NCBI RefSeq assembly: GCF_002151125.1
Contig: NZ_MDJZ01000018.1
Span: 1-59,620 of the forward strand
Reading direction: 5' to 3'
Origin: Clavibacter michiganensis
Lineage (GTDB): Bacteria > Actinomycetota > Actinomycetes > Actinomycetales > Microbacteriaceae
DNA length: 59,620 nucleotides
Shown here: positions 22,543 through 51,275 of the stretch, piece by piece
Position numbering within the stretch: the stretch's first letter is position 1
Layout of the letters: each line of letters begins with the position of its first letter
The notes under the pieces: generated by a model
Told to the model about the DNA's origin: nothing
What the model saw: only the letters and a program-made list of their open reading frames with translations
Databases searched by the model: none
Position numbers and translations under genes: made by a program

Positions 22543-22546
22543 GCGC

Positions 22547-24805: not shown

Positions 24806-24847
24806 CCGTCAAGTCCTCCTCGTCGAGCACGCGATCGTGATGAGGAG

Positions 24848-25027: not shown

Positions 25028-25043
25028 AGGATCACGTGATCCT
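25028..25043. promoter_or_regulatory. Perfect 16-bp palindrome AGGATCACGTGATCCT
   Basis: It lies in the 355-nt gap 24806-25160 between the end of the ABC importer operon and the kinase promoter; the gap holds no gene. With no loop it is unlikely to be a terminator, so a dimeric regulator site is the better reading. It is about 170 bp upstream of the CCTATAGG operator. Confidence 0.45.
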
Positions 25044-25160
25044 GCATGATCCGGCCAGGCCATTGACCTCTCGCGGCGCGACCCGCTACAAGGGCCCCCG
25101 CCGCGACCCGCGGGCCGCCCCGCGGGCGCCGGCTCGACGCCGCACCCGGCAGGCGGAGGC

Positions 25161-27016: not shown

Positions 27017-27095
27017 CGGCGGTGCTCCTGGTCGGGGTGGGGCGGTCGGCGGGCGGCGGTCAGCGCGGGGGTGAGGTCGGTGCGGCGGCCGCGGG

Positions 27096-33324: not shown

Positions 33325-33336
33325 GTAATATGTCAC
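33325..33336 (+). promoter_or_regulatory. Operator GTAATATGTCAC over the GH127 promoter
   Basis: The exact reverse complement, GTGACATATTAC, lies at 44511-44522 before the hydroxyproline operon. TTGCCA (33301-33306) and TGTAAT (33324-33329), spaced 17 nt, make a plausible promoter that the operator overlaps. The dyad reads GTnAnATnTnAC. The likely binder is the FCD GntR at 43744-44469. Confidence 0.6.
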
Positions 33337-33373: not shown

Positions 33374-35380
33374 ATGGCAGTGAGACGAGCGGATGCGGAC
33401 GACATCCGCACGGGCGGGCGCCGCCCCGCGGTCCTCCCCACCACCGGCCCCCGCCGTCCGCTGGGCGCCGCCGAGGTCGCGCTCGAGGGCGGACTGCTGG
33501 CGCACTGGCAGGAGCGCAACCGGTCCCGCACCATCCCCCACGCCATCGCGTCGATCGCCGCCGCCGGCAACCTCGACGACCTCCGCGCCGCCGTCGACGG
33601 CCCGGGCGAGCGGCCCGTCCCGCGCTACCCGTTCCTCGACACCGACGTCTACAAGACGCTCGAGGGCATCGCGTACGAGGTCGGACGCGGCGCCGCGAGC
33701 CCGGAGATGCGCGCCTTCGTCGACGAGGCCACCGACGTGCTCGAGCGCGTGCAGGCCGACGACGGCTACATCGGCTCGTACGTGCAGCGGCCCGGATCCG
33801 ACCGCGAGCCCTGGTCCGACCTCGCCTGGGGCCACGAGCTCTACAACCTCGGCCACCTGATCCAGGCCGCGGTGGCCGACTCCCGGCAGGGCGGCGACGG
33901 CCGGCTCCTCGCCGTGGCCCGCCGCTTCGCCGACGCCGCCGTCCGCGCGTTCGGCCCCGGCGGACGCGTCGAGGTCTGCGGGCATCCCGAGGTCGAGATG
34001 GCGCTCGTCGAGCTCCACCGCGAGACGGGGGAGCGCGCGTACCTCGACCTCGCCTCGGCGTTCGTCGACCGGCGCGGCCACGGCACCGTGGCGACGCGGA
34101 TCTTCCCGGCCGAGTACTTCCAGGACGCGCACCCCTTCCGCGAGATGCCCGCCGTCACGGGTCACGCCGTGCGCATGGCCTACCTCGCCGCCGGGGCGAC
34201 GGACGTGGCCGTGGAGACGGGCGACGCGGAGCTGCTCGCCGCCTCCGTCCGCCTGTTCGACGACGCCGTGCGCACGCGCCTCTACGTGACCGGCGGCCTC
34301 GGCAGCCGCCACTCCGACGAGGCCATCGGCGACGCGTTCGAGCTGCCGAGCGAGCGCTCCTACAGCGAGACCTGCGCGGCCATCGCCGTGATGCAGTGGG
34401 CGTGGCGCCTCTTCCTCGCCACCGGCGAGCCCCGGTTCCTCGACACCTACGAGACCGTGCTGCTGAACGCCTACGCGGTGGGCCTCTCCGCCGACGGCAC
34501 GGGCTTCTTCTACGACAACCCGCTCCAGCGCCGCCCCGACCACCACGCGCGGTCGGGCGCCGAGACCGAGGGCGAGCTGATGCGCCGCCCGTGGTTCACC
34601 TGCCCGTGCTGCCCGCCGAACATCGTCCGCTGGATGAGCGAGCTGCAGGACCACGTGGCGGTGCAGGACGGCGACGACCTCGTGATCGCGCACGCGACCG
34701 CGTGCGTGATCCGCACGGACGCGCTCGACGTGCGCGTGACGACGGCCTACCCCTGGGACGGCGCCGTCCGGGTCGAGGTGCTGCGCGCATCCGGCGCCCA
34801 GGCCGGCATCGTGCTCCGCCGGCCGGGATGGTGCCGCTCCGCGACCGCCTCCGTGCAGGGCGCCGACGGCGCGGCCGCGGCGGTGGACGCGCTGTCGTCC
34901 GACCGGTGGATCCGCGCCACCCGTGCCTGGGCCGCCGGCGACGCGCTCGTGGTCGAGCTCGACATGCCCGTCCGCGCGCTCGGATCCCACCCCCACCTCG
35001 ACGCGACCCGCGGCAGCCTCGCGGTGGCGCGGGGCCCGATCGTGTTCGCGGTCGAGCAGGAGGACGCCGGCGCACCCGTCGACGACCTGCTCCTCGACCC
35101 GCGCGACCTGGCGGCGGCGCGGACCGTGCCGCTGCCGCTCGCCGCGCCGTGGGGCGCCGTCGCGGATCCGGCCGACCCCGCGCCGGGCATCGCGCTCGCC
35201 GTGCGCCTCCGCCGCGCGCTCCCGGCGCCGGACGAGCTCTACCCCGAGGTCGTCCCCGGCACCACCGCCCCCGCCGCGTCGGCCGATCCCGTCGACGCCG
35301 TGCTCGTGCCGTACGCCCTGTGGGGCAACCGGTCGCCGGGCGCCATGCGGGTCTGGATCCGCGCGGCCGACCCCGGCTGA
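33374..35380 (+). CDS. GH127 beta-L-arabinofuranosidase (DUF1680), cytoplasmic
   Basis: 668 residues, no signal peptide. An (alpha/alpha)6 barrel (helical segments 60-430) and beta domains at the C-terminus. The zinc-cysteine site of HypBA1-type enzymes is intact: E332 and C334 (YSETCAA), C412 and C413 (TCPCCPPN); by alignment these match Glu338, Cys340, the Cys417 nucleophile and Cys418. GH127/146 enzymes remove beta-L-arabinofuranose from arabinosylated hydroxyproline of extensins. Here the gene opens an operon leading to a peptide importer, Pro-type peptidases and Hyp catabolism, which strongly supports that substrate. Being cytoplasmic, it should act on imported arabinosyl-Hyp or short glycopeptides. 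Confidence 0.9.
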   Translation: MAVRRADADDIRTGGRRPAVLPTTGPRRPLGAAEVALEGGLLAHWQERNRSRTIPHAIASIAAAGNLDDLRAAVDGPGERPVPRYPFLDTDVYKTLEGIAYEVGRGAASPEMRAFVDEATDVLERVQADDGYIGSYVQRPGSDREPWSDLAWGHELYNLGHLIQAAVADSRQGGDGRLLAVARRFADAAVRAFGPGGRVEVCGHPEVEMALVELHRETGERAYLDLASAFVDRRGHGTVATRIFPAEYFQDAHPFREMPAVTGHAVRMAYLAAGATDVAVETGDAELLAASVRLFDDAVRTRLYVTGGLGSRHSDEAIGDAFELPSERSYSETCAAIAVMQWAWRLFLATGEPRFLDTYETVLLNAYAVGLSADGTGFFYDNPLQRRPDHHARSGAETEGELMRRPWFTCPCCPPNIVRWMSELQDHVAVQDGDDLVIAHATACVIRTDALDVRVTTAYPWDGAVRVEVLRASGAQAGIVLRRPGWCRSATASVQGADGAAAAVDALSSDRWIRATRAWAAGDALVVELDMPVRALGSHPHLDATRGSLAVARGPIVFAVEQEDAGAPVDDLLLDPRDLAAARTVPLPLAAPWGAVADPADPAPGIALAVRLRRALPAPDELYPEVVPGTTAPAASADPVDAVLVPYALWGNRSPGAMRVWIRAADPG

Positions 35381-35518
35381 CGCGTCCTCCGTCCGCGCTC
35401 CCGGATCCATCCGATCGGGGGCGATCGCGCGCACCCGCATCCCCCTTCCCACCCATCGCACGACCCCGTCACTCCCCACCCGGTGCGCCTCGGCCGCCAT
35501 CCACGAAACGAGAGTCCG

Positions 35519-37204
35519 ATGAACAGACGAATCACCGCAGTCGGGCTGGCCCTCGCCGCCAGCCTCGCCCTCACGTCCTGCGCCGGTGCCGGAGGCGGCG
35601 CCGCGGCAGGCGACGTCACCGGCCCGGCCGACACGGGCGGCACCATGCAGGTGCTGCAGAGCACCGACTTCTCGCACCTCGATCCGGAGATGGGCTACGA
35701 CACGGGCGTCCAGAACCTGTACCGGCTCATCTACCGCACCCTGACGACGTCGTCGGGGAAGGACGGCGCGACGATCGCGCCCGACCTCGCGACCGACACC
35801 GGCACGCCGAACGAGGACGCGACCGTCTGGACCTTCACGCTCAAGGACGGCCTGAAGTTCGAGGACGGCTCGCCCATCACGAGCGAGTCCGTCAAGTTCG
35901 GCGTCGAGCGCTCCTTCGACCCGGCGCTCGCCATCGGCACGCCCTACACGCGCCTCTACCTCGCGGGCGCCGAGGGCTACAAGGGCCCGTACGAGTCGGG
36001 CGACCTCTCCTCCATCGAGACGCCGGACGAGAAGACGATCGTCTTCCACCTGAACCGCTCCGTGCCGGAGTTCGCGAGCGTCACGGCGCAGAGCACGTTC
36101 ACGCCGTTCCCGGCCGACAAGGAGAAGGTGACGGTCACGAGCATCGACCAGCAGCCCATCGCGTCCGGCCCGTACCGGGTCACGGCCCGCACCGCCGGAT
36201 CCTCCCTCACCCTCGAGCGCAACCCGGAGTGGGACCAGGCGACCGACGACGTCCGCACGGCGAAGCCCGACGCATGGCAGTTCACCATCGGCCTCGACCA
36301 GGCGACCATCGACGAGCGCATGCTCGCCGGCCAGGGCGACGACAAGGACGCGATCACGGGCGTGTCCATCACGCCCGCCTCGATCTCCCGGATCCAGACG
36401 CCCGCGCTGAAGGCGCGCACCGTCTCCGGCGACTTCGGCTGCACCACCTACCTCGGCCTCAACACCACGAAGCCGCACCTCGACGACGTCCGCGTCCGCC
36501 AGGCGATCGCGTACGCGGTCGACAAGAAGTCCCTCGCCGACGTCGCCGGGGGATCCATGCTCGCCGAGCCGGCCTCGACGATGCTGACCCCGTCGATCCC
36601 GGGCCACAAGGACTTCGACCTCTACCCGAGCGCCGACAGCGCGGGCGACGTGGACAAGGCCAAGGCGCTGCTCGCCGAGGCCGGGCTCCCCGACGGCTTC
36701 ACCATGACGCTCGACGTGCGCAACCTGCCGACCGCCCAGAAGCAGGCCGAGGCGCTGCAGCAGTCGCTCGCGAAGGCGGGCATCACGCTCGAGCTCAACA
36801 TCATCGACACCGCCACGTACTACGAGACCATCGGCACCCCCTCGCAGCAGCACGACGCCGCCGTCACCGGCTGGTGCCCCGACTGGCGCTCCGCCAGCAC
36901 GGTGCTGCCGACGCTCTTCGACGGGCGCCAGATCAGCGAGAAGGGCAACAACGACCTGTCGCAGCTGAACGACCCGGCGGTGAACGCGAAGATCGACGAG
37001 GTCTCCGCGATGACCGACCTCGAGGCGGCGAAGACCGCGTGGGGCGACCTGGACGAGCAGATCCAGGAGCTCGCGCCGACCGTGCCGCTCCTGTTCGGGC
37101 AGACGGTCATGGTGGTGGGCGAGGACGTGCGCAACGCGTACTCGAACCCGCTCTGGGCCGGCGGGATCGACTTCGCCACCATCGGCCTCCACACGGGGAA
37201 GTAG
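35519..37204 (+). CDS. Oligopeptide-type ABC importer substrate-binding lipoprotein (SBP family 5)
   Basis: 561 residues. Lipobox ALTSC (Cys21). Then the DppA/OppA-like fold: DTGGTMQVLQSTDFSHLDPE, TFTLKDGLKFEDGSPITSES, KTIVFHLNRSVPEFAS, FGCTTYLGLNTTKPHLDDVRVRQAIAYAVD and TGWCPDWRSASTVLPTLF. GAGAG lies 4 nt before the ATG. It starts 138 nt after the GH127 stop with no hairpin between, so read-through is likely. In context it should bind hydroxyproline-containing peptides or arabinosylated glycopeptides from plant walls. Confidence 0.9.
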   Translation: MNRRITAVGLALAASLALTSCAGAGGGAAAGDVTGPADTGGTMQVLQSTDFSHLDPEMGYDTGVQNLYRLIYRTLTTSSGKDGATIAPDLATDTGTPNEDATVWTFTLKDGLKFEDGSPITSESVKFGVERSFDPALAIGTPYTRLYLAGAEGYKGPYESGDLSSIETPDEKTIVFHLNRSVPEFASVTAQSTFTPFPADKEKVTVTSIDQQPIASGPYRVTARTAGSSLTLERNPEWDQATDDVRTAKPDAWQFTIGLDQATIDERMLAGQGDDKDAITGVSITPASISRIQTPALKARTVSGDFGCTTYLGLNTTKPHLDDVRVRQAIAYAVDKKSLADVAGGSMLAEPASTMLTPSIPGHKDFDLYPSADSAGDVDKAKALLAEAGLPDGFTMTLDVRNLPTAQKQAEALQQSLAKAGITLELNIIDTATYYETIGTPSQQHDAAVTGWCPDWRSASTVLPTLFDGRQISEKGNNDLSQLNDPAVNAKIDEVSAMTDLEAAKTAWGDLDEQIQELAPTVPLLFGQTVMVVGEDVRNAYSNPLWAGGIDFATIGLHTGK

Positions 37205-37207
37205 GCG

Positions 37208-38170
37208 GTGACCGCCACCCTGCAGGGCGCATCCGCGCCCGACCCGGCCCCCGCCTACCCGACGGGACGGCCGCCCGCCGTCACCCCGGCGAAGCGCGTG
37301 GTCGCGGCCCTCCGGTCGAAGCCCTCCGTGATCGCCAGCACCGCGTTCATGGTGCTGGTCCTGGTCCTCGCGGTGTTCGCGCCGCTGCTGTCCGGGATCA
37401 CCGGCTGGGGTCCGACGACCTTCGACCCGACGGCCGTGGACCCCGTCCTCGGCGGCCTGCCGATCGGCCCGTTCGGCGGCGTGAGCGCGCAGCACTGGTT
37501 CGGCGTCGAGCCGCAGAACGGGCGCGACATCTTCGCCCGCATCGCGTACGGCGCCCGGGTGTCCCTGCTCATCGCGGTCTCCGCCACGGTCGTCACCACG
37601 ACGATCGGCGTGATCGCGGGCATGGTCGCCGGCTACTTCGGCGGGATCGTCGACCAGGTCGTGTCGCGGGTCATGGACTTCCTCATGGCCTTCCCGGCGC
37701 TGATCTTCATGATCGCGATCCTGTCCGCGCTGCCCGCGGGCAACCGGCCGGCGCTGCTCGTCCTGGTGCTCAGCGTCTTCGGCTGGCCGTACACGGCGCG
37801 CATCGTGCGCGGCCAGACCATGACGATCCGCACGCGCGACTTCGTCGAGGCGGCCCGGGCGTCCGGCGCCTCCTCGATGGGCGTGATCTTCCGGGAGGTG
37901 CTGCCGAACCTCCGCGGCACCGTCATCGTGCTGGCCACGCTCGCGGTGCCGAGCTACATCGGCACCGAGGCGAGCCTGTCGTTCCTCGGGGTCGGCGTGC
38001 TGCCGCCGACGCCGTCGTGGGGCCAGATGATCGCCGACTCGGTGGCCTGGTACACGGTCGACCCCGCGTACTTCATCGTGCCGGGCTCGTTCCTCTTCCT
38101 CACGGTGCTGTCGTTCACGGTCTTCGGCGACCACCTCCGCACCGCGCTCGAGCAGGGGGAGGCGGCATGA
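37208..38170 (+). CDS. Peptide ABC importer permease, DppC/OppC type
   Basis: 320 residues from GTG 37208, 3 nt after the binding-protein stop. The N-terminal helix near residues 38-62 and the DppC-type insertion (GPFGGVSAQHWFGVEPQNGRD) precede the permease core with five helices. The EAA loop is RDFVEAARASGASSMGVIFREVLPN. The LGVGVLPPTPSWGQMI motif is diagnostic of the OppC side. Here the OppC-type gene comes before the OppB-type gene, the reverse of most dpp/opp operons. Its stop overlaps the next start by 4 nt (ATGA). Confidence 0.9.
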   Translation: MTATLQGASAPDPAPAYPTGRPPAVTPAKRVVAALRSKPSVIASTAFMVLVLVLAVFAPLLSGITGWGPTTFDPTAVDPVLGGLPIGPFGGVSAQHWFGVEPQNGRDIFARIAYGARVSLLIAVSATVVTTTIGVIAGMVAGYFGGIVDQVVSRVMDFLMAFPALIFMIAILSALPAGNRPALLVLVLSVFGWPYTARIVRGQTMTIRTRDFVEAARASGASSMGVIFREVLPNLRGTVIVLATLAVPSYIGTEASLSFLGVGVLPPTPSWGQMIADSVAWYTVDPAYFIVPGSFLFLTVLSFTVFGDHLRTALEQGEAA

Positions 38171-39159
38171 TCGGCTACCTCGTCCGCCGCGCCGGATCCG
38201 CGCTGATCGTGCTCGCGCTCATCAGCCTGTTCACCTACATGATCTTCTTCCTGCTCCAGCCGGACCCCGCCGTCACCATCTGCGGCAAGACCTGCACGCC
38301 GGACAAGATCGACTCCATCCGCCAGCTCCTCGGGCTCGACCGGCCGTTCTGGGCGCAGTACGGCGACTTCGTCGCGGGGATCTTCACGGGCCGCACCTAC
38401 GGCGACGGCGCCACGGCGATCCAGTGCGCCGCGCCCTGCCTGGGATTCAGCTTCCAGACGCAGCAGTCCGTGCTCGACCTGATGCTGTCCCGCCTGCCCG
38501 TGAGCGTCACGGTCGCGGTCGGCGCGGCGGTCCTCTGGGTCGTCTTCGGCGTGGCGGGCGGCCTCGTCAGCGCGATCAAGCAGGGCACCGGATGGGACCG
38601 GGCCGCCATGGCCGCGGCGCTCGCGGGGATCAGCGTGCCGATGACCTTCGCGGCGCTGCTCCTGCAGTACGTGCTCGTCGTGCAGCTGCAGGTCCTGCCG
38701 TTCCCGCAGTCCGTGGCGTTCGGCGACGACCCCGTCCTGTGGTTCGAGTCGTACCTCATGCCGTGGGTCGTGGTCGCGCTCGGCTACGCCTCCGTGTACG
38801 CGCGGATCGTGCGGGCCAACGTGCTCGACACGCTCCAGGAGGACTACCTGCGCACCGCGCGGGCCAAGGGCCTGTCGGCGGCGCTCGTGATCCGGCGGCA
38901 CGCCCTCCGGCCGTCGCTCACACCCGTCGTCACCCTGTTCGGCATGGACTTCGCCGGCCTGCTCGGCGGCGCCCTGATCGCCGAGAGCATCTTCGGCCTC
39001 AACGGCGTCGGCAAGCTCGCCGCCGACTCCATCGCCAAGAACGACCAGCCCGTCATCATGGGCGTCACGCTCCTCGCCGCGGCCTTCGTGGTCGTCGGGA
39101 ACGTGGTCGTCGAAGTGCTGTACACCGTGCTCGACCCCCGAGTGAGGATCACCGCGTGA
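38167..39159 (+). CDS. Peptide ABC importer permease, DppB/OppB type
   Basis: 330 residues. MIGYLVRRAGSALIVLALISLFTYMI is the classic OppB first helix; then LLGLDRPFWAQYGDFV, five more helices, and the EAA loop YLRTARAKGLSAALVIRRHALR. An unusual feature is two pairs of cysteines in the extracytoplasmic loop (ICGKTC near residue 42 and QCAAPC near 87) that could form disulphides in the exposed region. Coupled by 4-nt overlaps to the genes on both sides. Partners with the DppC-type protein to form the membrane channel. Confidence 0.9.
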   Translation: MIGYLVRRAGSALIVLALISLFTYMIFFLLQPDPAVTICGKTCTPDKIDSIRQLLGLDRPFWAQYGDFVAGIFTGRTYGDGATAIQCAAPCLGFSFQTQQSVLDLMLSRLPVSVTVAVGAAVLWVVFGVAGGLVSAIKQGTGWDRAAMAAALAGISVPMTFAALLLQYVLVVQLQVLPFPQSVAFGDDPVLWFESYLMPWVVVALGYASVYARIVRANVLDTLQEDYLRTARAKGLSAALVIRRHALRPSLTPVVTLFGMDFAGLLGGALIAESIFGLNGVGKLAADSIAKNDQPVIMGVTLLAAAFVVVGNVVVEVLYTVLDPRVRITA

Positions 39160-40022
39160 CCGCCACCGCACCGCACCAGCCGCCCGCCCGCGCCGTCCCC
39201 GGGACGCCGCTGCTCGAGGTCGAGCACCTCACCATCGCGTTCCCCACCTCGCGGGGGCCGGTGGAGGTGGTGAAGGACCTCTCCTTCCGCGTGGAGCCGG
39301 ACAGCACCCTCGGCATCGTGGGGGAGTCCGGGTCCGGCAAGTCGATGACCTCGCTCGCCGTGATGGGCCTCGTGCCCCGCGGCGGGACGGTCACCGGCAG
39401 CATCCGGCTCGCGGGCGAGGAGCTCGTCGGCCGCACCGACCGGGAGCTCCGGGCCATGCGCGGCGACCGCATGGCGATGGTGTTCCAGGATCCGCTCTCC
39501 TCGCTCAACCCCTACTTCACGGTGGGGCTGCAGATCGAGGAGGCGTACCGGGCCCACCGCGCAGGCTCCCGGAAGGCCGTGCGGTCGACCGTGGTCGCCG
39601 CGCTCGAACGGGTGGGCATCAAGGAGGCGGGCACGCGCGTCGACCACTACCCGCACCAGTTCTCGGGCGGCATGCGGCAGCGCATCATGATCGCGATGGC
39701 GCTGTGCCTCGAGCCCGAGCTGCTCATCGCCGACGAGCCGACCACCGCGCTCGACGTGACGGTGCAGGCGCAGATCCTCGACCTCCTGCGCTCCATCCGC
39801 CAGGAGACGGGGATGGGCATGCTCGTCATCACCCACGACCTCGCCGTCGTGTCCTCCCTCGCCGACGAGGTGCTCGTCATGCAGGGCGGGCACCGCGTCG
39901 AGAGCGGGACCACCGAGCGCGTGTTCACCGCGCCGGAGGATCCGTACACGCACGCGCTGCTCGAGGCGATCCCCCGCATCGACGCCGCCTACGACCGCCA
40001 GACGACGGGATCCGCCTCATGA
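39156..40022 (+). CDS. Peptide ABC importer ATPase, DppD/OppD type
   Basis: 288 residues from GTG 39156. [16 protein letters not shown] start, Walker [28 protein letters not shown]-loop, signature FSGGMRQR, Walker [19 protein letters not shown], switch His in [10 protein letters not shown], and the C-terminal oligopeptide-transporter region ([16 protein letters not shown]). It ends soon after this region and lacks the longer [4Fe-4S] Cys tail seen in many DppD/DppF proteins. Overlaps both neighbours by 4 nt. Confidence 0.92.
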
Positions 40023-40966
40023 GCATCCACGACACCCGCCCCGACGTCCCGGCCGCGCCCGCCGCGGCCACGCCGGAGCCGTTCCTCTCCGCGCGCGACC
40101 TCACCAAGGAGTACGTGACGCGCGGCGGCCGCGGGCTCCGGCCGCCCGTGCGCCGGTTCCTCGCGGTCGACGGCGTGAGCCTCGACGTGCCGACCGGGCA
40201 GACGCTCTCCATCGTGGGGGAGTCCGGATCCGGCAAGTCGACGACCGCGCGCATCGTCGCGCACCTGCTCGAGCCCACGTCCGGCACCTTCGCGCTGAAG
40301 GGCGAGGACATGACGCACGCGACGGGAGCGGCGCTGCGCGAGTTCCGGCGGCAGGTGCAGGTGGTGTTCCAGGATCCGGCGTCGTCGCTCAATCCGCGGC
40401 ACACGGTGGAGCAGATCATCAGCGCGCCGCTGCGGTACCAGGGCATCACGACGCCGGGCGGGCACGGGAGGCTCGTGCGCGACCTGCTCGACCGCGTGGG
40501 GCTCGACCCGGACCACGCGCAGCGCTACCCGGCGCAGTTCTCCGGCGGGCAGTGCCAGCGGATCGGGATCGCCCGGGCGCTCGCCGTGAGCCCGGGACTC
40601 ATCGTGTGCGACGAGGCGGTCTCCGCGCTCGACGTGACGGTGCAGGCGCGGGTCATCGCGCTGCTGCGCGACCTCCAGCGGGAGCGCGGGCTGAGCTACG
40701 TCTTCATCGCGCACGACCTCGCCGTCGTGCGGCAGCTCTCCGACCGCGTCGCCGTGATGAGCTCGGGGAAGGTCGTCGAGGAGGGCACGCGCGACGACGT
40801 GTTCGAGCGGCCGCAGCACCCGTACACGCGCGCGCTGCTCGACGCGGTGCCGCGCATCGACCCCGGGTGGGATCGGCGGCGGAACGCCGCGCGCGCCGCC
40901 GCCGGGCTCGACGCGGGCTCCCTCGGCACGGGCGCGGTCCGCACGGCGGACGGGTCGGCCGCGTGA
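40019..40966 (+). CDS. Peptide ABC importer ATPase, DppF/OppF type
   Basis: 315 residues. PFLSARDLTKEYVTRGG start with the OppF-typical FLAVDGVSLDVPTGQTL, Walker [26 protein letters not shown], signature FSGGQCQRIGIARAL (Cys in place of the usual Arg/Gln), Walker [19 protein letters not shown] and switch His in FIAHDLAVV. Pairs with the DppD-type ATPase. A 30-residue Ala-rich C-terminal tail. Overlaps both the upstream ATPase stop (ATGA) and the downstream peptidase start (GTGA) by 4 nt. Confidence 0.92.
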   Translation: MSIHDTRPDVPAAPAAATPEPFLSARDLTKEYVTRGGRGLRPPVRRFLAVDGVSLDVPTGQTLSIVGESGSGKSTTARIVAHLLEPTSGTFALKGEDMTHATGAALREFRRQVQVVFQDPASSLNPRHTVEQIISAPLRYQGITTPGGHGRLVRDLLDRVGLDPDHAQRYPAQFSGGQCQRIGIARALAVSPGLIVCDEAVSALDVTVQARVIALLRDLQRERGLSYVFIAHDLAVVRQLSDRVAVMSSGKVVEEGTRDDVFERPQHPYTRALLDAVPRIDPGWDRRRNAARAAAGLDAGSLGTGAVRTADGSAA

Positions 40967-43724: not shown

Positions 43725-43743
43725 CCCCAGGAGGAGGACCCGC

Positions 43744-44469
43744 GTGAGCCTCTCCGCACTGCGTCCCGCACCCCCGCGCGAGAGCCTGCGCGAGCACGTG
43801 CACCAGGCGCTGTCCGCGGCCATCGTCTCCGGCGAGCTCGAGCCGGGCACGCTGATCACCGTCCCGACGCTCGCCGTGCGCTTCGACGTGTCCGCGACGC
43901 CGGTGCGCGAGGCCGTGCTCGAGCTGGAGAAGCGCGGGTTCGTCGAGACCGTCCGCAACAAGGGCTTCCGCGTCACCGCGGTGAGCGACGAGGAGCTGGG
44001 GCACCTGGTGCAGGTGCGCCAGCTCCTCGAGGCGCCCGCCATGGAGCGCCTCGCCGGGCGGCTGCCCGAGGGCGCGCTCCCCGGTCTCGAGGCGCTCGCC
44101 GACCGCATCGAGCAGGGCGCGCGCGACGGCGACCTCCGCGCGTACCTCGAGGCCGACCAGGAGCTGCACCTGTCCCTCACGCGCATGCTCGGCAATCCCG
44201 TGCTGACCGACGCCATCGCCGACCTCCGCTCGCGCACGCGCCTCGTCGGCCTCGCGTCGATGAAGGAGAGTCGCCTGCTGGACGCGTCGGCGGCCGAGCA
44301 CCACGAGCTGCTGCGGGCGCTGGTCGCCGGCGACGGTGCCGCGGCGCACGAGCTGATGGTGCGGCACATCCGGCACGCCAGCGGCTGGTGGGCGGGGCGC
44401 GGGGAGGGCGAGGACGCGGCGGTCGTCGACGCGGACGATGCCGTGGCCGTCCCCGATCCCGCGAGCTGA
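43744..44469 (+). CDS. GntR family regulator, FCD type, of the glycopeptide/hydroxyproline locus
   Basis: 241 residues from GTG 43744, with GGAGGAGG upstream. Winged helix: LREHVHQALSAAIVSGELEPG, PTLAVRFDVSATPVREAVLE, LEKRGFVETVRNKGFRV. FCD domain: VQVRQLLEAPAMERLA, YLEADQELHLSLTRMLGN (Asp/His ligands), EHHELLRAL and VRHIRHASGW. A charged tail follows. Last gene of the importer-peptidase operon, immediately before the Hyp operon, with the shared 12-bp operator at both promoters. It probably represses both and responds to Hyp or a pathway intermediate. Shares fold but little sequence with the GntR at 20998. Confidence 0.88.
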   Translation: MSLSALRPAPPRESLREHVHQALSAAIVSGELEPGTLITVPTLAVRFDVSATPVREAVLELEKRGFVETVRNKGFRVTAVSDEELGHLVQVRQLLEAPAMERLAGRLPEGALPGLEALADRIEQGARDGDLRAYLEADQELHLSLTRMLGNPVLTDAIADLRSRTRLVGLASMKESRLLDASAAEHHELLRALVAGDGAAAHELMVRHIRHASGWWAGRGEGEDAAVVDADDAVAVPDPAS

Positions 44470-44510
44470 GCGGCCGCCCACGCGCGGCCGCTTCCCCTCC
44501 GAGGCGATGT

Positions 44511-44522
44511 GTGACATATTAC
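44511..44522 (+). promoter_or_regulatory. Operator GTGACATATTAC before the hydroxyproline operon
   Basis: Exact reverse complement of 33325-33336. Here it is extended into a second inverted repeat, GTGACA-N6-TGTCAC (44511-44528). CATATT inside it could be a -10. It sits in the 114-nt gap after the GntR gene. Confidence 0.65.
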
Positions 44523-44583
44523 TGTCACCGCCGACCACCGCCGCCTCCTCGAGAGGCGCACACACCCGTGAGATGAGGCCCGC

Positions 44584-45798
44584 ATGACGCGTCACGTGGT
44601 CGTCGTGGGCGGGGGCATCGTCGGGGCCGCGTGCGCCCGGTCGCTCGCCCGGGCGGGGATCTGCGTCACGGTCGTCGAGCGCGCCGCCGTCGCCTCCGGC
44701 ACGAGCGCGCAGGGCGAGGGCAACATCCTCGTCTCCGACAAGGGCCCGGGCGCGGAGCTCGAGCTCGCGCAGCTGGCCGCCCGCCGCTGGCCCGAGGTCG
44801 CCGCGGAGCTCGCGGACGAGCTGGGCGGCGCGCTCCCGTCCATCGAGTACGAGCCCAAGGGCGGGCTCGTCGTCACGACCACCGACGAGGGCGCGGATCC
44901 GCTCCTCGCCTTCGCGGCCACGCAGCGCTCCGCGGGCGTCGCCGCGATCGCGGTGGACGTGCGCCGGGCGCTCGAGCTCGAGCCGTGGCTGAACCCGGCG
45001 ATCACCGCGGCCGTGCACTACCCCGAGGACGCGCAGGTGCAGCCCGCCATCGCGACCGAGGCGCTCGCCGCGTCGGCCCGACGCGCGGGGGCGGTCGTGC
45101 GGACGGGCGTCGAGGTGATCGGGCCGCTGCTCGACGCGGACGGCGCGCTCCGCGGCGTGCGGACGACGGCGGGCGACATCCCCGCCGACGACGTGCTGGT
45201 CGCGGCGGGCCCCTGGTCGGGCGAGGTGGCGCGCGCGCTCGGCGTCGAGCTGCCGGTGCTGCCGCGGCGCGGGGTGGTGCTCGTGACCACGCGCATGCCG
45301 CACCGCATCCGGCACAAGGTCTACGACGGCGACTACGTGGGCGCGGTCGGATCCGGGGACGGCGCCCTGCAGACCTCGGGCGTCGTGGAGTCCACGCCGT
45401 CGGGGACGGTGCTCATCGGATCCAGCCGCGAGCGCGTGGGCTTCGACGCGTCGCTGCGCGTGGCCGTGCTCGAGGAGCTCGCCGCGAAGGCCGTGCGGCT
45501 CTTCCCCTTCCTCGTCGACGCGAACGCGATGCGCTCCTACGGCGGCTTCCGGCCCTACCTGCCCGACCACCTCCCGGTCGTCGGCCCGGATCCGCGGCTG
45601 CCCGGCCTCTGGCACGCGAGCGGGCACGAGGGCGCGGGCATCGGCCTGTCCGTCGCGACCGCCGACCTCGTCGCGGACCTCATGAGCGGATCCGCGCCCG
45701 CGCTCGACGTGCGGCCCTTCTCGGTCGCGCGCGCCTCGCTCGGGCTCGCGATGCCGGGTGCCGCGCTGCCGACGGACGCCCGCGGGGTGCGGGCATGA
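44584..45798 (+). CDS. D-hydroxyproline dehydrogenase, FAD/DAO-type subunit (beta)
   Basis: 404 residues. FAD-binding Rossmann start HVVVVGGGIVGAACARSLARAG, VVERAAVASGTSAQGEGNI, the DAO-fold substrate domain, and YGGFRPYLPDHLPVVGP with the final GHEGAGIGLSVATADLVADL. Such subunits oxidise D-amino or imino acids with FAD. Together with the [2Fe-2S] and FAD/BFD subunits downstream (4-nt overlaps), it forms the three-part D-hydroxyproline dehydrogenase of the bacterial Hyp pathway, making 1-pyrroline-4-hydroxy-2-carboxylate. First gene of the Hyp operon, downstream of the shared operator. Confidence 0.85.
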   Translation: MTRHVVVVGGGIVGAACARSLARAGICVTVVERAAVASGTSAQGEGNILVSDKGPGAELELAQLAARRWPEVAAELADELGGALPSIEYEPKGGLVVTTTDEGADPLLAFAATQRSAGVAAIAVDVRRALELEPWLNPAITAAVHYPEDAQVQPAIATEALAASARRAGAVVRTGVEVIGPLLDADGALRGVRTTAGDIPADDVLVAAGPWSGEVARALGVELPVLPRRGVVLVTTRMPHRIRHKVYDGDYVGAVGSGDGALQTSGVVESTPSGTVLIGSSRERVGFDASLRVAVLEELAAKAVRLFPFLVDANAMRSYGGFRPYLPDHLPVVGPDPRLPGLWHASGHEGAGIGLSVATADLVADLMSGSAPALDVRPFSVARASLGLAMPGAALPTDARGVRA

Positions 45799-46166
45799 CG
45801 CCGCGCCGCGTGGATCCGGCGCGCGACCCGATCCGCCCGGGACCCGCGGAGGCCGTGCGGTTCACCGTCGACGGGGATCCCGTCGAGGGCGTGCGGGGAC
45901 AGACGATCGCGGGCGCGCTGCTCGCCTCCGGCACGCTCGCCTGGCGCACGACCGCGAGCGCCGGCCGACCGCGCGGCGTCTTCTGCGGGATCGGCGTGTG
46001 CTTCGACTGCACCGTCACCGTCAACGGGCTGCCCGACGTGCGCGCCTGCCAGCGGCGCGCGGTCGAGGGCGACGTGGTGGAGACCGGGCCGGGGGCGACC
46101 GTGCCGGACGCCGGGGCCGCATCCGCCGACGCCGCGGACCCCGACCGGGCCGGGAGCGCCTCGTGA
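45795..46166 (+). CDS. D-hydroxyproline dehydrogenase, [2Fe-2S] subunit (gamma)
   Basis: 123 residues. VRFTVDGDPVEGVRGQTIAGALLASG then RGVFCGIGVCFDCTVTVNG and DVRAC: four cysteines in a C-x4-C-x2-C...C pattern that holds one plant-ferredoxin-type [2Fe-2S] cluster, as in HcnA/SoxD-like small subunits. An Ala/Asp-rich tail of 25 residues. It passes electrons between the two flavin subunits. It overlaps both neighbours by 4 nt, so the three subunits should be made in equal amounts. Confidence 0.88.
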   Translation: MTPRRVDPARDPIRPGPAEAVRFTVDGDPVEGVRGQTIAGALLASGTLAWRTTASAGRPRGVFCGIGVCFDCTVTVNGLPDVRACQRRAVEGDVVETGPGATVPDAGAASADAADPDRAGSAS

Positions 46167-47815
46167 GCGGCGCGGACGACCGGCGGCACGTCGTCGTGGT
46201 CGGCGCGGGACCGGCCGGGCTCGCCGCCGCCGTCGCCGCGCGCGGTCGCGGGGCGCGGGTCACGCTGCTCGACGCGTCCGACGAGCTGGGCGGCCAGTAC
46301 TGGCGGCACCTGCCGGCGTCCCGGCCCGCGGCGCGCGAGCGGATCCTGCACCACGGCTGGGACGCGTTCACCGCGCTCCGGGGGCGTCTCGCGGCCGACG
46401 CGGGCTGCGAGATCGTGACGGGCGCGCAGGTGTGGGCGATCGAGCGGCCGGCGCCGGACGCGGCTGGCGATGCCGCCGCCGCCGATGACGCCGCGCCGCC
46501 CGCCGCCGTCGTCCACGTGCTCGTCGGCCAGGTCGACGGATCCCAGCGCGCGCCGCTGACCCTCCGCCCGCACGCGCTCGTGCTCGCGACCGGCGCGCAC
46601 GACCGCACGCTGCCCTTCCCCGGCTGGGACCTGCCGGGCGTCTTCACCGCGGGCGCCGCGCAGGCCCTCGCGAAGGGCGAGCGCGTGGCGATCGGCGACC
46701 GCGTCATCGTCGCGGGCGCCGGCCCCTTCCTCCTCCCCGTCGCCGTGTCGCTCGTGCAGGCGGGCGCGCGCGTCGTCGGGATCCACGAGGCCGCGCGCGT
46801 GCCGGGGCTCGGCCGCGGCTGGCTGCGGGATCCGCTCGGCCTCGCCCGCGCGCCGCACAAGGCCGCCGAGCTCGCGGGCTACGTCTCCGTGCTGGCGCGC
46901 GAGCGCATCGGCTACTCGACCGGCAGCGCGGTCGTCGCCGCGCACGGGACCGACCGCGTCGAGGCCGTGACCGTGCAGCGCCTCGACGCGTCGTGGGCGC
47001 CGATCCCGGGCACCGAGCGGCGGATCGCCGTGGACGCCGTGTGCGTCGGCCACGGGTTCACGCCCCGGCTCGAGCTGCCCATCGCGGCGGGCTGCCGCAT
47101 CGGGTCAGACCGGTTCGTCGAGGTCGACGCCGACCAGGGCGCCGGGCCCGCGGGTGTCTACGCCGCCGGCGAGATCACGGGCATCGGGGGAGTGGACCAG
47201 GCGCTCGCCGAGGGCGAGGTCGCGGGGCACTGCGCGGCCGGCGGAACCCCGTCCGACGCCGCCATCGCCCCCGCCGTCCGCCGCCGGGCCGTCGCGCACG
47301 ACGTGGCCGGTCGCATCGAGGCGGCGCACGGGATCCGCCCCGGCTGGACCGGCTGGCTCCGCGACGACACGCTCGCCTGCCGCTGCGAGGAGGTGCCGGT
47401 CGGCCGGATCCGCGCCACCGCCCGCGCCGCGCGCTCCACCGACCTCCGCTCCATGAAGCTCGCCACGCGCGCCGGCCTCGGCATCTGCCAGGGCCGCGTC
47501 TGCGGGCGCACCGTCGAGGAGCTGCTCGACGCGGAGTCGCCGGCCTGCGGATCGCCCGCCGCCTCCCCGACGCCCGCCGCGCCCGGCCCCGGTTCCGACC
47601 GCCGCCCCCTCGCCTCGCCCGTGCGCCTCGGCGAGCTCGCCGCCGCGTACGACCGCCGTGACGCCGGACCCCCGTCGCTCGCCGCGGCCGCCCCGGGCGT
47701 CGACGACCCGCCCGGCGTCGACGACCCGGCGCCCGCCGCCGAGCCCCCGCGCGACCCCGCGGCCCCGACCACCCCCGCACCGCCCCGCACCACCGACCGG
47801 AAGGACACGCCATGA
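46163..47815 (+). CDS. D-hydroxyproline dehydrogenase, FAD/NAD(P)-binding subunit with BFD-type cluster domain (alpha)
   Basis: 550 residues from GTG 46163. FAD site VVVVGAGPAGLAAAVAARG, DASDELGGQYW, LVLATGAHDRTLPFPGW, second dinucleotide site VIVAGAGPFLLPVAVSL, and YAAGEITGIGG. The C-terminal part has a BFD-like [2Fe-2S] domain: LACRCEEVPVGRIR and LGICQGRVCGRT (four Cys). This is the HcnB/alpha-subunit layout. The last 85 residues are Pro/Ala-rich and disordered, with a duplicated PGVDDP, an unusual extension. Overlaps the following deaminase gene by 4 nt. Confidence 0.88.
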   Translation: MSGADDRRHVVVVGAGPAGLAAAVAARGRGARVTLLDASDELGGQYWRHLPASRPAARERILHHGWDAFTALRGRLAADAGCEIVTGAQVWAIERPAPDAAGDAAAADDAAPPAAVVHVLVGQVDGSQRAPLTLRPHALVLATGAHDRTLPFPGWDLPGVFTAGAAQALAKGERVAIGDRVIVAGAGPFLLPVAVSLVQAGARVVGIHEAARVPGLGRGWLRDPLGLARAPHKAAELAGYVSVLARERIGYSTGSAVVAAHGTDRVEAVTVQRLDASWAPIPGTERRIAVDAVCVGHGFTPRLELPIAAGCRIGSDRFVEVDADQGAGPAGVYAAGEITGIGGVDQALAEGEVAGHCAAGGTPSDAAIAPAVRRRAVAHDVAGRIEAAHGIRPGWTGWLRDDTLACRCEEVPVGRIRATARAARSTDLRSMKLATRAGLGICQGRVCGRTVEELLDAESPACGSPAASPTPAAPGPGSDRRPLASPVRLGELAAAYDRRDAGPPSLAAAAPGVDDPPGVDDPAPAAEPPRDPAAPTTPAPPRTTDRKDTP

Positions 47816-48729
47816 CCGCACCCGCCCTGGACCTCGGAGGCGTCGTCGTCGCCACCACGCTGCCGTTCCGCGAGGACGCGTCGGCCCCCGCCGGCCTCGC
47901 CGTCGACTACGACGCGTACGCCCGCCACTGCGACTGGCTCATGTCGAACGGCTGCCGCGGCGTCGGACCGAACGGATCCCTCGGCGAGTACTCGTCGCTC
48001 ACCGACGAGGAGCGCCGGAAGGTCGTGCAGGTCGCGGTCGAGACCGTCGGCGACCGCGGGATCGTCGTGGCCGGCGTGCACGGCGTCGGCTGGCACCAGG
48101 CGAGGAAGTGGGCCGAGATCGCGGCAGAGGACGGCGCCGACGGCGTGCTGCTCCTCCCGCCCACCATCTACCGGGCGAGCGACGACGAGGTCGTCGAGCA
48201 CTACGCGCGCGTCGACGAGGTGGGCCTGCCGATCATGGCCTACAACAACCCCTTCGACACCAAGGTCGACCTCACGCCGCAGCTCCTCCAGCGCCTCGAC
48301 GCGCTCGAGAACGTCGTGGCGATCAAGGAGTTCTCGGGCGACATCCGGCGCGTGACGGAGATCCAGGACCTCACGGGCCTCGACGTCATCGCGGGCGCCG
48401 ACGACCTGCTGCTCGAGTCGCTCATCATGGGCGCCGTCGGCTGGTTCGCGGGCTACCCGAACGCGTTCCCGCGCGAGGCCGTGGAGCTGTACGGGCTCGC
48501 GACCAGCGGCCGCATCGAGGAGGCGAAGGAGCTGTACCGCCACCTCGTGCCGGTCTTCCGCTGGGACTCGCGCACCGAGTTCGTGCAGGCCATCAAGCTG
48601 TCGATCGACGTGGCCGGCGAGAGCACGGGCGGTCCGACCCGTCCGCCGCGCGCGCCGCTGCCCGCCGCGGTCGCCGCCGAGGTCACGCGCGACACCCGCC
48701 GTGCGCTCGACCACCTCGCCGGGCGATGA
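47812..48729 (+). CDS. 1-pyrroline-4-hydroxy-2-carboxylate deaminase (DHDPS/NAL superfamily)
   Basis: 305 residues, class I aldolase-type barrel. Schiff-base Lys172 in VVAIKEFSGD, Tyr144 in IMAYNNPFD, and the carboxylate loop GPNGSLGEYSSLT. In the Hyp pathway this enzyme deaminates and dehydrates 1-pyrroline-4-hydroxy-2-carboxylate to 2-oxoglutarate semialdehyde. DapA of lysine synthesis has the same fold but is ruled out by context: the genes on both sides are the Hyp dehydrogenase and Hyp epimerase. The epimerase gene starts 7 nt downstream. Confidence 0.88.
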   Translation: MTAPALDLGGVVVATTLPFREDASAPAGLAVDYDAYARHCDWLMSNGCRGVGPNGSLGEYSSLTDEERRKVVQVAVETVGDRGIVVAGVHGVGWHQARKWAEIAAEDGADGVLLLPPTIYRASDDEVVEHYARVDEVGLPIMAYNNPFDTKVDLTPQLLQRLDALENVVAIKEFSGDIRRVTEIQDLTGLDVIAGADDLLLESLIMGAVGWFAGYPNAFPREAVELYGLATSGRIEEAKELYRHLVPVFRWDSRTEFVQAIKLSIDVAGESTGGPTRPPRAPLPAAVAAEVTRDTRRALDHLAGR

Positions 48730-48736
48730 TCGACGG

Positions 48737-49738
48737 ATGAGGTCCTCCCGCGTCTTCCACGCCGTCGACTCGCACACCGAGGGCATGCCGACCCGCGTCG
48801 TCACGAGCGGCTTCGGCGTCATCCCCGGTGCGACCATGAACGAGCGCCGCCTGCACCTCATCGAGCACCTCGACCACCTGCGGCTCCTGCTCATGACCGA
48901 GCCGCGCGGGCACGCGGCGATGAGCGGCGCGATCCTGCAGCCGCCCACGCGCGACGACTGCGACTGGGGCGTCCTCTACATCGAGGTGTCCGGCTGCCTG
49001 CCGATGTGCGGCCACGGCACCATCGGGGTCGCGACCGTGCTCGTGGAGACCGGGCTCGTGGAGGTGCAGGAGCCGGTCACGACGATCCGGCTCGACACCC
49101 CCGCGGGGCTCGTGATCGCGCGGGTCGACGTGGAGGACGGGCGTGCGGCCTCGGTCACGATCGAGAACGTGCCCTCCTACGTGGAGCGCCTCGACGCGCA
49201 GATCGAGGTGCCGGGCTACGGCACCGTCCCGTACAGCCTCGCGTTCGGCGGCAACTTCTACGCGGTCGTCGAGCTCGACGCGCTGGGGCTGCCGTTCGAC
49301 CGGGAGCGGCAGCAGGAGATCCTCCAGGCCGGGCTCGCGATCATGGGCGCGATCGACGACCAGGACGCGCCCTCGCACCCCGAGATCTCCGGGGTCGACC
49401 ACTGCCACCACGTGGAGTTCCTCGCGCCCGGATCCGACGCGCGGCTGTCGCGGCACGCCATGGCGATCCACCCCGGCTGGTTCGACCGGTCGCCGTGCGG
49501 CACCGGCACGTCCGCGCGCATGGCGGAGCTGTGGGCGCGCGGCGAGCTGGCCGTGGGCGACGAGTTCGTCAACGAGTCGTTCATCGGCAGCCGCTTCACC
49601 GGGCGGATCCTCCGGGAGACGACCGTCGCCGGCCGGCCCGCCATCGTCCCCGCCATCACCGGGCGCGCCTGGATCACCGGCATGGGACAGTACCTGCTGG
49701 ATCCCACCGACCCGTTCCCGAGCGGCTTCCGGTTCTGA
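48737..49738 (+). CDS. 4-hydroxyproline 2-epimerase (proline racemase family)
   Basis: 333 residues, cofactor-independent epimerase converting trans-4-hydroxy-L-proline to cis-4-hydroxy-D-proline, the first step of Hyp catabolism. Both catalytic cysteines are present: Cys91 (PMCGHGTIG) and Cys254 (SPCGTGTSA). A Cys/Cys pair fits epimerases or racemases, whereas trans-3-hydroxy-L-proline dehydratases have Thr at the second position. HTEGMPTRVV and GGNFYAVVE are further family motifs. I chose ATG 48737; an earlier in-frame ATG would overlap the deaminase gene. Confidence 0.92.
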   Translation: MRSSRVFHAVDSHTEGMPTRVVTSGFGVIPGATMNERRLHLIEHLDHLRLLLMTEPRGHAAMSGAILQPPTRDDCDWGVLYIEVSGCLPMCGHGTIGVATVLVETGLVEVQEPVTTIRLDTPAGLVIARVDVEDGRAASVTIENVPSYVERLDAQIEVPGYGTVPYSLAFGGNFYAVVELDALGLPFDRERQQEILQAGLAIMGAIDDQDAPSHPEISGVDHCHHVEFLAPGSDARLSRHAMAIHPGWFDRSPCGTGTSARMAELWARGELAVGDEFVNESFIGSRFTGRILRETTVAGRPAIVPAITGRAWITGMGQYLLDPTDPFPSGFRF

Positions 49739-49766
49739 ACCGCGCGAGCCCCCACCGAGGAGAGAC

Positions 49767-51275
49767 ATGACCCCGCACGAGACCGATCCGACCACCGACC
49801 CGACCGTCGCGGCGACCGTGGGCGCCGTCGCCGCGCGTGCCGCGGACGCCGCCGCGCCGCTCGCCGCCCTCGCGCCGGCCGTGCGCGCCGACGCGCTCGA
49901 GGCGGTGGCCGACGCGCTCGAGGCCATCCGCCCCGAGCTGCTGCCCGTCGCCGAGCGGGAGACCGCGCTCGCACCCGGGCGCCTCGCCGGCGAGCTGACG
50001 CGGACGACCGTGCAGCTGCGGATCCTCGCCGCAGCCACCCGCGACGGCCGCTACCTCGACGCGCGCATCGACCACGCGGATCCCGACGCGGCGCCCGCCC
50101 CGCGCCCCGACATCCGCCGGTACCTCGTGCCCGTCGGGCCCGTGCTCAACTTCGCGGCGTCGAACTTCCCGTTCGCGTTCTCGGTCGCGGGCGGCGACAC
50201 GGCGTCGGCGCTCGCGGTGGGCTGCCCGGTGGTCGTGAAGGCGCACCCGGGGCACCCGGAGCTGTCGCGCCGGGTGGCCGAGGCCGCGTCCGCCGCGCTC
50301 GTCGCCGCGGGCCTGCCCGAGGGCACGCTGCAGCTCGTCGAGGGCGAGGAGGCGGGGCTCGCCATGCTGCGCGACCCGCGGATCCGCGCCGCCACCTTCA
50401 CCGGATCGCTCCGCGCCGGCCGCTTCCTCGCCGACGTCGCCGCGGCCCGCCCCGACCCGATCCCGTTCTTCGGCGAGCTGGGCAGCGTCAACCCGGTCGT
50501 CATCACCGAGCGCGCCGCCGCCGAGCGCGGCGCCGACATCGCGCGGGCCCTCGTGGCGAGCGCCGCCGGATCCGCCGGGCAGCTCTGCACCGCGCCCGGC
50601 ATCGTGCTGATCCCCGCGGGCCACGGCCTCGACCGGGTGCTCGCGGAGGAGGCCGGCGCCGTCGCCCCGCACGGGATGCTGAACCCGAAGATCGCCGAGG
50701 GCTACGCCGGCGGCCGCGCCGCCGCGATCGCGGTCGACGGCGTGCGCCTCGTCGCGGAGGGCCGCGCACCCGCGGGCGACGACGGATCCGTGACCCCCAC
50801 GGTCGCCGCCGTCTCGCTCGCCGACTTCGAGGCCGCGGGCGATGCGCTCCGGCACGAGGTGTTCGGGCCGTTCGCGCTCCTCGTCGAGTACCCCGCGGGC
50901 ACCGACCTCGCCGCCCTCGCCGCGCGCACCTTCACGGGGGAGCTGACCGCGAGCGTCCACCTCGGCGCCGACGAGGCCGACGCCGCCGACCCGACGACCG
51001 CCGAGCTGATCCGCGTGCTCGCCGCCCGCGCCGGCCGCGTGCTCGTCGACGCCTGGCCCACGGGCGTCTCCGTCACCGACGCGCAGCAGCACGGCGGACC
51101 CTGGCCCGCCACCACGCTCGACCGCGGCACGAGCGTCGGCACCGCGTCGCTCGACCGGCTGCTCCGCGGCGTCGCCTTCCAGGGCGTGCCCGACGCGCTG
51201 CTGCCGGAGCCGCTGCGCACGGCGAACCCGTGGGGCGTGCCGCAGCGCGTGAGCGAGCGCGGCGCTCGCGCCTGA
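49767..51275 (+). CDS. 2-oxoglutarate semialdehyde (2,5-dioxovalerate) dehydrogenase
   Basis: 502 residues, aldehyde dehydrogenase of the KGSADH type that ends Hyp breakdown at 2-oxoglutarate. Motifs: VGPVLNFAASNFPFAFS (Asn oxyanion), CPVVVKAHPGHPELS cofactor binding, FTGSLRAGR, general-base Glu in PFFGELGSVNP, and nucleophile Cys in SAGQLCTAPG. The AHPGHP motif and GELGSVNP are characteristic of the subfamily. GAGGAGA lies 4 nt before the ATG. Last gene of the Hyp operon, followed by a GC-rich hairpin. Confidence 0.92.
   Translation: MTPHETDPTTDPTVAATVGAVAARAADAAAPLAALAPAVRADALEAVADALEAIRPELLPVAERETALAPGRLAGELTRTTVQLRILAAATRDGRYLDARIDHADPDAAPAPRPDIRRYLVPVGPVLNFAASNFPFAFSVAGGDTASALAVGCPVVVKAHPGHPELSRRVAEAASAALVAAGLPEGTLQLVEGEEAGLAMLRDPRIRAATFTGSLRAGRFLADVAAARPDPIPFFGELGSVNPVVITERAAAERGADIARALVASAAGSAGQLCTAPGIVLIPAGHGLDRVLAEEAGAVAPHGMLNPKIAEGYAGGRAAAIAVDGVRLVAEGRAPAGDDGSVTPTVAAVSLADFEAAGDALRHEVFGPFALLVEYPAGTDLAALAARTFTGELTASVHLGADEADAADPTTAELIRVLAARAGRVLVDAWPTGVSVTDAQQHGGPWPATTLDRGTSVGTASLDRLLRGVAFQGVPDALLPEPLRTANPWGVPQRVSERGARA

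Follow-up and report, generated by a model that had tools for sequence, protein, structure and literature searches.

The 15 genes at 33374-51275 of the window (the whole stretch of DNA analysed: one entire contig of 59,620 bases and 74% GC, from the 3.02 Mb, 18-contig genome of Clavibacter michiganensis) lie on the + strand in two operons, and we consider it probable that they form one regulon of the HypR type for the use of O-arabinosylated hydroxyproline (Hyp) peptides. Operon 1 begins with a GH127 β-L-arabinofuranosidase, continues with a five-gene importer and two peptidases and ends with a GntR/FCD regulator; a 114-base gap separates it from operon 2, which starts with the DAO subunit of D-hydroxyproline dehydrogenase and holds the Hyp catabolic enzymes. 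The original prediction, made from the same DNA, had described a complete locus for extensins that imports Hyp glycopeptides, strips their arabinose, cuts them and burns the Hyp. Our gene calls and the Pfam and NCBIfam scans bear out the genes, their strand and their order, and in silico the steps hold together as one unit, but 'complete' and 'extensins' were overstatements: none of the 15 genes (calls and domain scans of 33374-51275) encodes a secreted protease, GH121, GH43 or α-galactosidase, which leaves the locus without the outer steps, and other sources of arabinosylated Hyp fit equally well.

As to mechanism, we infer that other enzymes outside the cell would make short Hyp-(Ara)n peptides or Ara-Hyp, the putative ligands of the family-5 solute-binding protein (SBP), a lipoprotein that would import them, still glycosylated, together with OppBCDF. 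Deglycosylation would come before proteolysis: cytosolic GH127 would strip off β-L-arabinofuranose to leave L-arabinose and bare Hyp peptides, in which the M24 aminopeptidase P would cut between Xaa and Hyp/Pro and the S33 enzyme between Hyp/Pro and Xaa, alternating. The epimerase would then convert trans-4-L-Hyp to D-Hyp, which the three-subunit dehydrogenase, the deaminase and a final oxidation would take to 2-oxoglutarate. The GntR/FCD protein, acting as HypR, would repress both promoters via one operator until Hyp or a derivative, the presumed inducer, appears.

The two operons are tied together by a 12-base element, GTAATATGTCAC, noticed by side-by-side reading of their promoters. This HypR-type operator lies before operon 1 (33325-33336, + strand) and before operon 2 (44511-44522, - strand); these are its only exact matches in the 3.02 Mb genome, which holds no match with one mismatch. 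With up to two mismatches allowed, the window has 2 matches against 0.14 expected, and the eight genome matches at two mismatches (2 for a reversed-pattern control) are treated as chance. Since the two promoters share this operator, and no other site in the genome matches it at 0-1 mismatch, co-induction of the operons is favoured at the level of DNA sequence; the original prediction had named a lack of co-induction as one of its refutations, and the sequence points the opposite way. A sigma-70 scan detected no promoter. The S. coelicolor HypR motif, CTNTGC(A/C)ATGTCAC, was built from a footprint and electrophoretic mobility shift assays (PMC6608401), and GTAATATGTCAC and the footprinted site have ATGTCAC in common. 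A GntR/FCD regulator and a HypR-type operator at the Hyp genes are thus both present, as expected of a HypR regulon.

The operator is conserved with the locus. Among the 18 loci in which the 15 genes are contiguous, 14 have a copy with no more than one mismatch at each promoter, and the remaining four, which belong to a single genus, combine the site at the Hyp promoter with a two-mismatch variant at GH127; a match within one mismatch occurs in 23 of 24 hand-picked relatives (the exception being G021). In G079, exact copies stand at both promoters although the two arms of the system are more than 1 Mb apart. The published HypR motif has seven exact matches in 80 GH127 loci (1.64 Mb), every one beside GH127: six are within 350 bases upstream of the gene, and the seventh (L138) is 129 bases before the GH127 match, at a place where the gene caller gave no start. 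Five are from Kribbella, one from Arthrobacter and one from Specibacter, so that the seven do not count as independent. The shorter core TGC(A/C)ATGTCAC gives 31 matches in the same loci, 24 upstream of GH127, one at L138, five near the deaminase gene and one near an unassigned gene (L127). The two forms of the motif likely mark GH127 as a HypR target.

The linkage of the genes exceeds chance, because all five importer genes are found in 69 of 70 GH127 orthologue loci and in none of 30 paralogue loci. The loci come from a scan of named genomes that gave at least 80 GH127 loci (74 orthologues at 51% identity or above, 6 distant), the nearest being from Clavibacter and 90-93% identical; at least 9 kb downstream was needed for a locus to be counted, which left out four of the 74, and genes were scored at 48% identity or above. 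S33 is present in 62/70 of them, M24 in 55/70 and a Hyp gene in 46/70. The controls comprise 20 paralogue loci fetched for the purpose, 4 from family stretches and the 6 distant loci of the scan; three are short (3.5, 8.1 and 15.7 kb), L196 and L198 hold a family-5 SBP at 37-41%, and L084 and the window genome's own two paralogues (in L103 and L105) stand outside the set. At the level of whole genomes, the epimerase HypE accompanies the GH127 orthologue in 10/10 genomes of the family against 27/120 (the first 120 family genomes; p=7e-8) and in 6/6 GH127-positive genomes of the class against 74/296 (p=2e-4), these being p-values for related genomes with kinship uncorrected, from scans that scored at most 4 or at most 7 candidates per genome and may have missed some.

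The Hyp genes beside GH127 occur in several arrangements. On a tree of 75 rows the arrangement changes at least 19 times against a shuffled mean of 38, a count that is inflated by scoring cut stretches as 'none adjacent' and that uses hand-set labels, two of them assigned by kin (L118, whose contig ends at GH127, and L122, whose stretch ends after GntR). The divergent arrangement alone takes 4 changes, on well-supported branches. It seems that the two arms were joined anew more than once, as a bystander would not be. Clustering of the neighbours (unassigned genes above 120 residues in the 80 loci, clusters in at least 5 loci) gave genes shared mostly within one genus, and no recurring second glycosidase or protease was recognised among them from the starts of their sequences; this argues against a 'complete' locus and marks the edges of the unit.

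Within the family, GH127 matches split into 10 genomes at 53-100% identity and a second class at 46% or below; with 53% as the threshold for an orthologue, 10 of the 50 genomes with any match qualify. We read by tblastn stretches of up to 20 kb around all 56 HypE places, found in 55/249 genomes (the window itself included; three stretches end at contig ends). The 15-gene order is contiguous in 17/56 (the G109 stretch ends before the last gene), and G433, from the order sample, brings the contiguous loci to 18. Other stretches hold parts of the system: the arms are adjacent but divergent and without S33 in G053, and present but apart in G003 and G079; the stretches of G182 and G063 run Opp-S33-M24-GntR-Hyp and have no GH127 call; G230 and G129 have M24-GntR-Hyp, as does G142 with about 10.5 kb between GntR and DAO; and G021, which has no GH127, carries a GH146-type enzyme (PDB 5opj, 206 bits) between M24 and the deaminase. 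At most other HypE places nothing of operon 1 is nearby except GntR. In the order sample GH127 orthologues occur in 4/297 genomes, all from the window's family. A search of plasmid records gave none with one place spanning 80% of the importer-S33 stretch.

The genus offers a natural comparison. GH127 is carried by 16 of 18 Clavibacter genomes, and in G837 the DNA between RecQ and GntR lacks GH127 and all that follows it up to the last 41 codons of M24, which remain; the Hyp operon and one operator are kept. Given the genus pattern, this gap is most simply read as a deletion, and it indicates that the glycopeptide arm is a separable unit. The other Clavibacter without GH127, G830 (92% complete), has no HypE either.

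GH127 (33374-35380, + strand, 668 residues) matches the catalytic domain PF07944 (276 bits) and the GH127 middle and C-terminal domains PF20736 and PF20737 (49 and 67 bits), all above cut-off. Its nearest PDB chains are 4qjy, 6ex6 and 3wkw (HypBA1), and it aligns with residues 85-665 of HypBA1 over most of its length. The intact Zn/Cys site of the original prediction is there: E332, C334, C412 and C413 align with E338, C340, C417 and C418 of HypBA1, whose numbering (E322/E338/C340/C417/C418) we counted through in the alignment. R267, H204, H154 and Y157 align with R273, H194, H142 and Y145, which form the substrate site of HypBA1 (PMC10850190). All eight residues and E316, which is aligned too, show no variation among 14 aligned orthologues, the window included. 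This domain set and these HypBA1-type residues place the enzyme in GH127 and not in GH146. The label of aceric acid hydrolase (NF049879) was rejected, at 310 bits against an equivalog cut-off of 950. An N-terminal hydrophobic stretch is missing in 93/93 orthologue rows, consistent with the predicted cytosolic location; this and the other surveys of N-termini use starts from our own gene caller, with some genomes present in two collections. Removal of β-L-arabinofuranose from Hyp is the best reading of its function. The genome also encodes an L-arabinose isomerase (AraA), and in G003 araB, araD and araA directly follow the M24 gene of the GH127-to-M24 block, which fits a release of L-arabinose in the cytosol.

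The importer has the five genes claimed for it, in one operon, and is of the Opp/Dpp type within the ATP-binding cassette (ABC) class. The SBP (35519-37204, +; PF00496 at 259 bits on the longer open reading frame (ORF) 35483-37204) has as its best PDB match 2wok, oligopeptide-binding protein 2 (308 bits); a lipobox-like LTSC is visible in its sequence, and 73/93 orthologue rows have an N-terminal hydrophobic stretch. The AlphaFold model built on 12 aligned rows was of low quality (mean predicted local distance difference test score 43). Two permeases follow, of OppC type (37208-38170, +; BPD_transp_1 at 102 bits and NCBIfam Opp/Dpp/Nik families) and OppB type (38167-39159, +; BPD_transp_1_N and BPD_transp_1), and then two ATPases, of OppD type (39156-40022, +; NCBIfam YejF/OppD/DppD-type matches at 289-311 bits) and OppF type (40019-40966, +; DppF/OppF/GsiA-type at 294-305 bits). 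Among the NCBIfam matches listed, no equivalog cut-off is reached, and so the importer has no named substrate class.

The two peptidases were also as predicted, one of proline type and one of Xaa-Pro type, by domain and PDB matches. The S33 protein (40963-42270, +; Abhydrolase_1) is a distant S33-like, prolyl-aminopeptidase-like enzyme clearly related by sequence to its nearest chains, 8jgm (328 bits) and 8jgn (326 bits); the latter is named AT3g61540, which from its gene number is presumably the plant PAP2. PAP2 is said to cleave N-terminal proline (PMC12516527). The S33 motif GQSYGG, with S150, is invariant in 14 orthologues. The specific label of prolyl aminopeptidase, TIGR01249, was discarded for this protein (38.7 bits against a curated cut-off of 259.75). 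The M24 enzyme (42267-43724, +) has the AMP_N and Peptidase_M24 domains of an aminopeptidase P, above cut-off, and matches PDB 4pv4 at 206 bits; D299, D311, H396, E426 and E450, which we take to be its metal ligands, are invariant in 14. An N-terminal hydrophobic stretch is missing in 82/82 rows for S33 and in 80/81 for M24. About 5 kb past the locus, at 56022-56990 (+), is a prolyl aminopeptidase (TIGR01249, 378 bits against 259.75), a second source of the Pro/Hyp-Xaa cut with no operator copy.

The HypR-like regulator (43744-44469, +; PF00392 and PF07729) closes operon 1. In operon 2, all on the + strand, follow the three subunits of D-hydroxyproline dehydrogenase, namely DAO (44584-45798; PF01266, 219 bits), 2Fe-2S (45855-46166; Fer2_4, 82 bits) and FAD/BFD (46163-47815; Pyr_redox_2 and Fer2_BFD on the longer ORF 45758-47815), and then the pyrroline-4-hydroxy-2-carboxylate deaminase of the DHDPS family (47812-48729; PF00701, 151 bits), the 4-hydroxyproline 2-epimerase HypE (48737-49738; PF05544, 427 bits on the longer ORF 48701-49738) and the α-ketoglutaric semialdehyde dehydrogenase (49767-51275; PF00171, 120 bits; PDB 3v4c, 336 bits, and 1eyy, 307 bits). 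Every enzyme claimed from trans-4-hydroxy-L-proline to 2-oxoglutarate is thus represented at domain level. A Cys/Cys pair marks 4-hydroxyproline epimerases, and the Pro_racemase fold here has both catalytic cysteines, C91 and C254, invariant in 10 orthologues. Domain set and order are shared with SCO6289-SCO6293, with a semialdehyde dehydrogenase in addition, and the domain of the DAO subunit is that of SCO6289 (PMC6608401).

Several observations weigh against one regulon for arabinosylated Hyp peptides. The operator in the window is not identical to the published HypR motif but a variant of it, and beyond the family the 12-mer is only loosely matched, at 3 mismatches in 40/74 GH127 promoters, for which the background is 72/623 other genes at 3 or fewer mismatches (6 of the 623 at 0-1). 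G003 has a match at the Hyp promoter only, and G021, with its GH146 variant, has none at 0-1 mismatch. The epimerase scores 348 bits, below the NF010578 cut-off of 376, and the SBP, both permeases, both ATPases and S33 are all below NCBIfam equivalog cut-offs. S33 is missing from 8/70 loci and M24 from 15/70; 24/70 have no Hyp gene in the stretch, although in 23 of those 24 genomes HypE lies outside it at 68% identity or above, with none found in L160 (Kribbella). L133 (Streptomyces sp. NBC_01669) has GH127-S33-M24-DHDPS deaminase-HypE without an Opp importer, this group being divergent from DAO-Fer2-FAD-GntR, and L084 (G101), at 5142-12388, has a 39% GH127 paralogue with an SBP_bac_1-type importer directly before a GntR-Hyp operon. 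The L084 arrangement offers another means of coupling the use of arabinose to that of Hyp.

L084 is also what one would expect if a sugar importer brought in β-arabino-oligosaccharides cut off outside, to be split by GH127, with bare Hyp entering by another route and the arms co-regulated only via their shared glycoprotein food. Uptake of this kind is known from Bifidobacterium longum, which imports β-Ara2 and has an intracellular GH127 (PMC7263609). In the present locus, however, the SBP is of family 5 and nearest to an oligopeptide-binding protein, not of the SBP_bac_1 type; the S33 and M24 enzymes that accompany most of the 70 loci nearly all lack an N-terminal hydrophobic stretch; and L058 and L073, whose stretches have no GH127 call, combine Opp with S33-M24-GntR-Hyp and carry the operator before the SBP. 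We suggest that such a sugar-import route is unlikely. It is less probable still, and very unlikely, that GH127 targets some other β-arabinofuranoside or an aceric-acid glycoside (arabinan, rhamnogalacturonan II) with its peptide and Hyp neighbours incidental. Aceric acid hydrolase is indeed the best NCBIfam match, if far below cut-off, and PF07944 enzymes have several specificities (PMC10850190), but the context conserved in 69/70 loci, the shared operator, the exact HypR sites at related GH127 promoters and the GH146-type enzyme in a block without GH127 all speak against it.

The use of arabinosylated Hyp peptides, which we prefer, is compatible with sources other than extensin, and there is nearly an even chance that the food is solanaceous lectins, arabinosylated signalling peptides of the CLE or PSY type or free Ara-Hyp. 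All of these would be handled by the same mechanism, and extensin fragments also fit it. Solanaceous lectins are named beside extensin in PMC6085000 and CLAVATA3 in PMC5897480; the locus has only the binding protein, the importer and the cytosolic steps, and L133 keeps GH127, S33 and M24 without the importer. A more adventurous idea, to which we give only a small chance, is that the Opp system carries intact O-arabinosylated Hyp peptides including the CLE/PSY signals, in which case actinobacteria on plants would be using plant peptide signals as food and erasing them as well.

Each part of the system is known already; it is the joined, co-regulated system that appears to be a new variation on them. 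The S. coelicolor HypR regulon SCO6289-SCO6294 is induced by L-Hyp, with HypR a repressor, and resembles the locus in its GntR/FCD regulator, three-subunit dehydrogenase, deaminase and epimerase, in domains and order and in the core ATGTCAC; unlike the locus, it is tied to collagen (M9 collagenase SCO5912), and the HypR targets in Table 2 of that paper include no GH127, Opp importer, S33 or M24 (PMC6608401). B. longum HypAA-HypBA2-HypBA1 shares an intracellular GH127 acting on Hyp-glycoprotein β-L-arabinofuranosides and import by an ABC system, but there GH43 and GH121 cut the sugar outside and β-Ara2 enters via a sugar importer, and the accounts in PMC7263609 and PMC10850190 describe no peptide import, peptidase or Hyp catabolism. 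The marks of such a system (GH121 and GH43 outside, a clustered sugar importer) are not found among the genes at 33374-51275. In Xanthomonas euvesicatoria, XeHypAA, XeHypBA2 and XeHypBA1 act on extensin/lectin Ara4-Hyp down to Ara-Hyp, and a putative prolyl oligopeptidase gene, a pseudogene per the authors, adjoins xehypAA; the description includes no Opp importer or Hyp pathway (PMC6085000). Because the XeHypBA1 construct was trimmed of an N-terminal signal peptide (PMC6085000), that enzyme is probably exported, unlike the present GH127. For Latescibacteria, GH127 was proposed to release extensin arabinose, and amino acid/oligopeptide transporters are encoded too, an account of genome content that describes no joined locus or regulon (PMC4454575). 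In the full-text literature searched (openly licensed papers, with bioRxiv preprints outside it, by word searches that can miss papers) we found no description joining these parts, and within those bounds the claim of no described system stands.

The described Bifidobacterium and Xanthomonas systems act on the sugar of Hyp-rich glycoproteins, which are part of plant walls; in the present locus the removal of the sugar, the cutting of the peptide and the breakdown of the carrier amino acid would come together under one switch, in a system spread across many Actinomycetota (Clavibacter, Plantibacter, Streptomyces, Nonomuraea and Kribbella). This gives a testable function to a large set of genes whose only labels at present are 'peptide ABC transporter', 'alpha/beta hydrolase' and GH127 or DUF1680, and a handle on how soil and plant bacteria recycle the carbon and nitrogen of cell-wall proteins.

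Elsewhere in the window, 20998-28067 (-) holds GntR, triose-phosphate-isomerase-like, RpiB/erythrulose-4-P-isomerase-like and dihydroxyacetone-kinase-like genes with a three-gene sugar ABC importer, which looks like a tetritol (erythritol/threitol type) catabolic operon, and 28343-30484 (+) encodes an ExeM/NucH-type extracellular nuclease (514 bits, with the cut-off at 300). By another Hyp operon, L063:2999-13329 (with similar genes in L094) has hydantoinase A and B, an amidohydrolase, an RbsABC-type importer and P5CR-like and RidA-like genes, and the operator recurs there exactly at 9291 and 9709; from its genes this appears to be a second Hyp-linked module. Finally, L048:3853-11225 (G085) has proline-racemase-like, ornithine-cyclodeaminase-like and alanine-symporter-like genes just downstream of an exact copy of the operator (G085:C9:17295), and these genes perhaps serve the use of trans-3-hydroxyproline in the same regulon.

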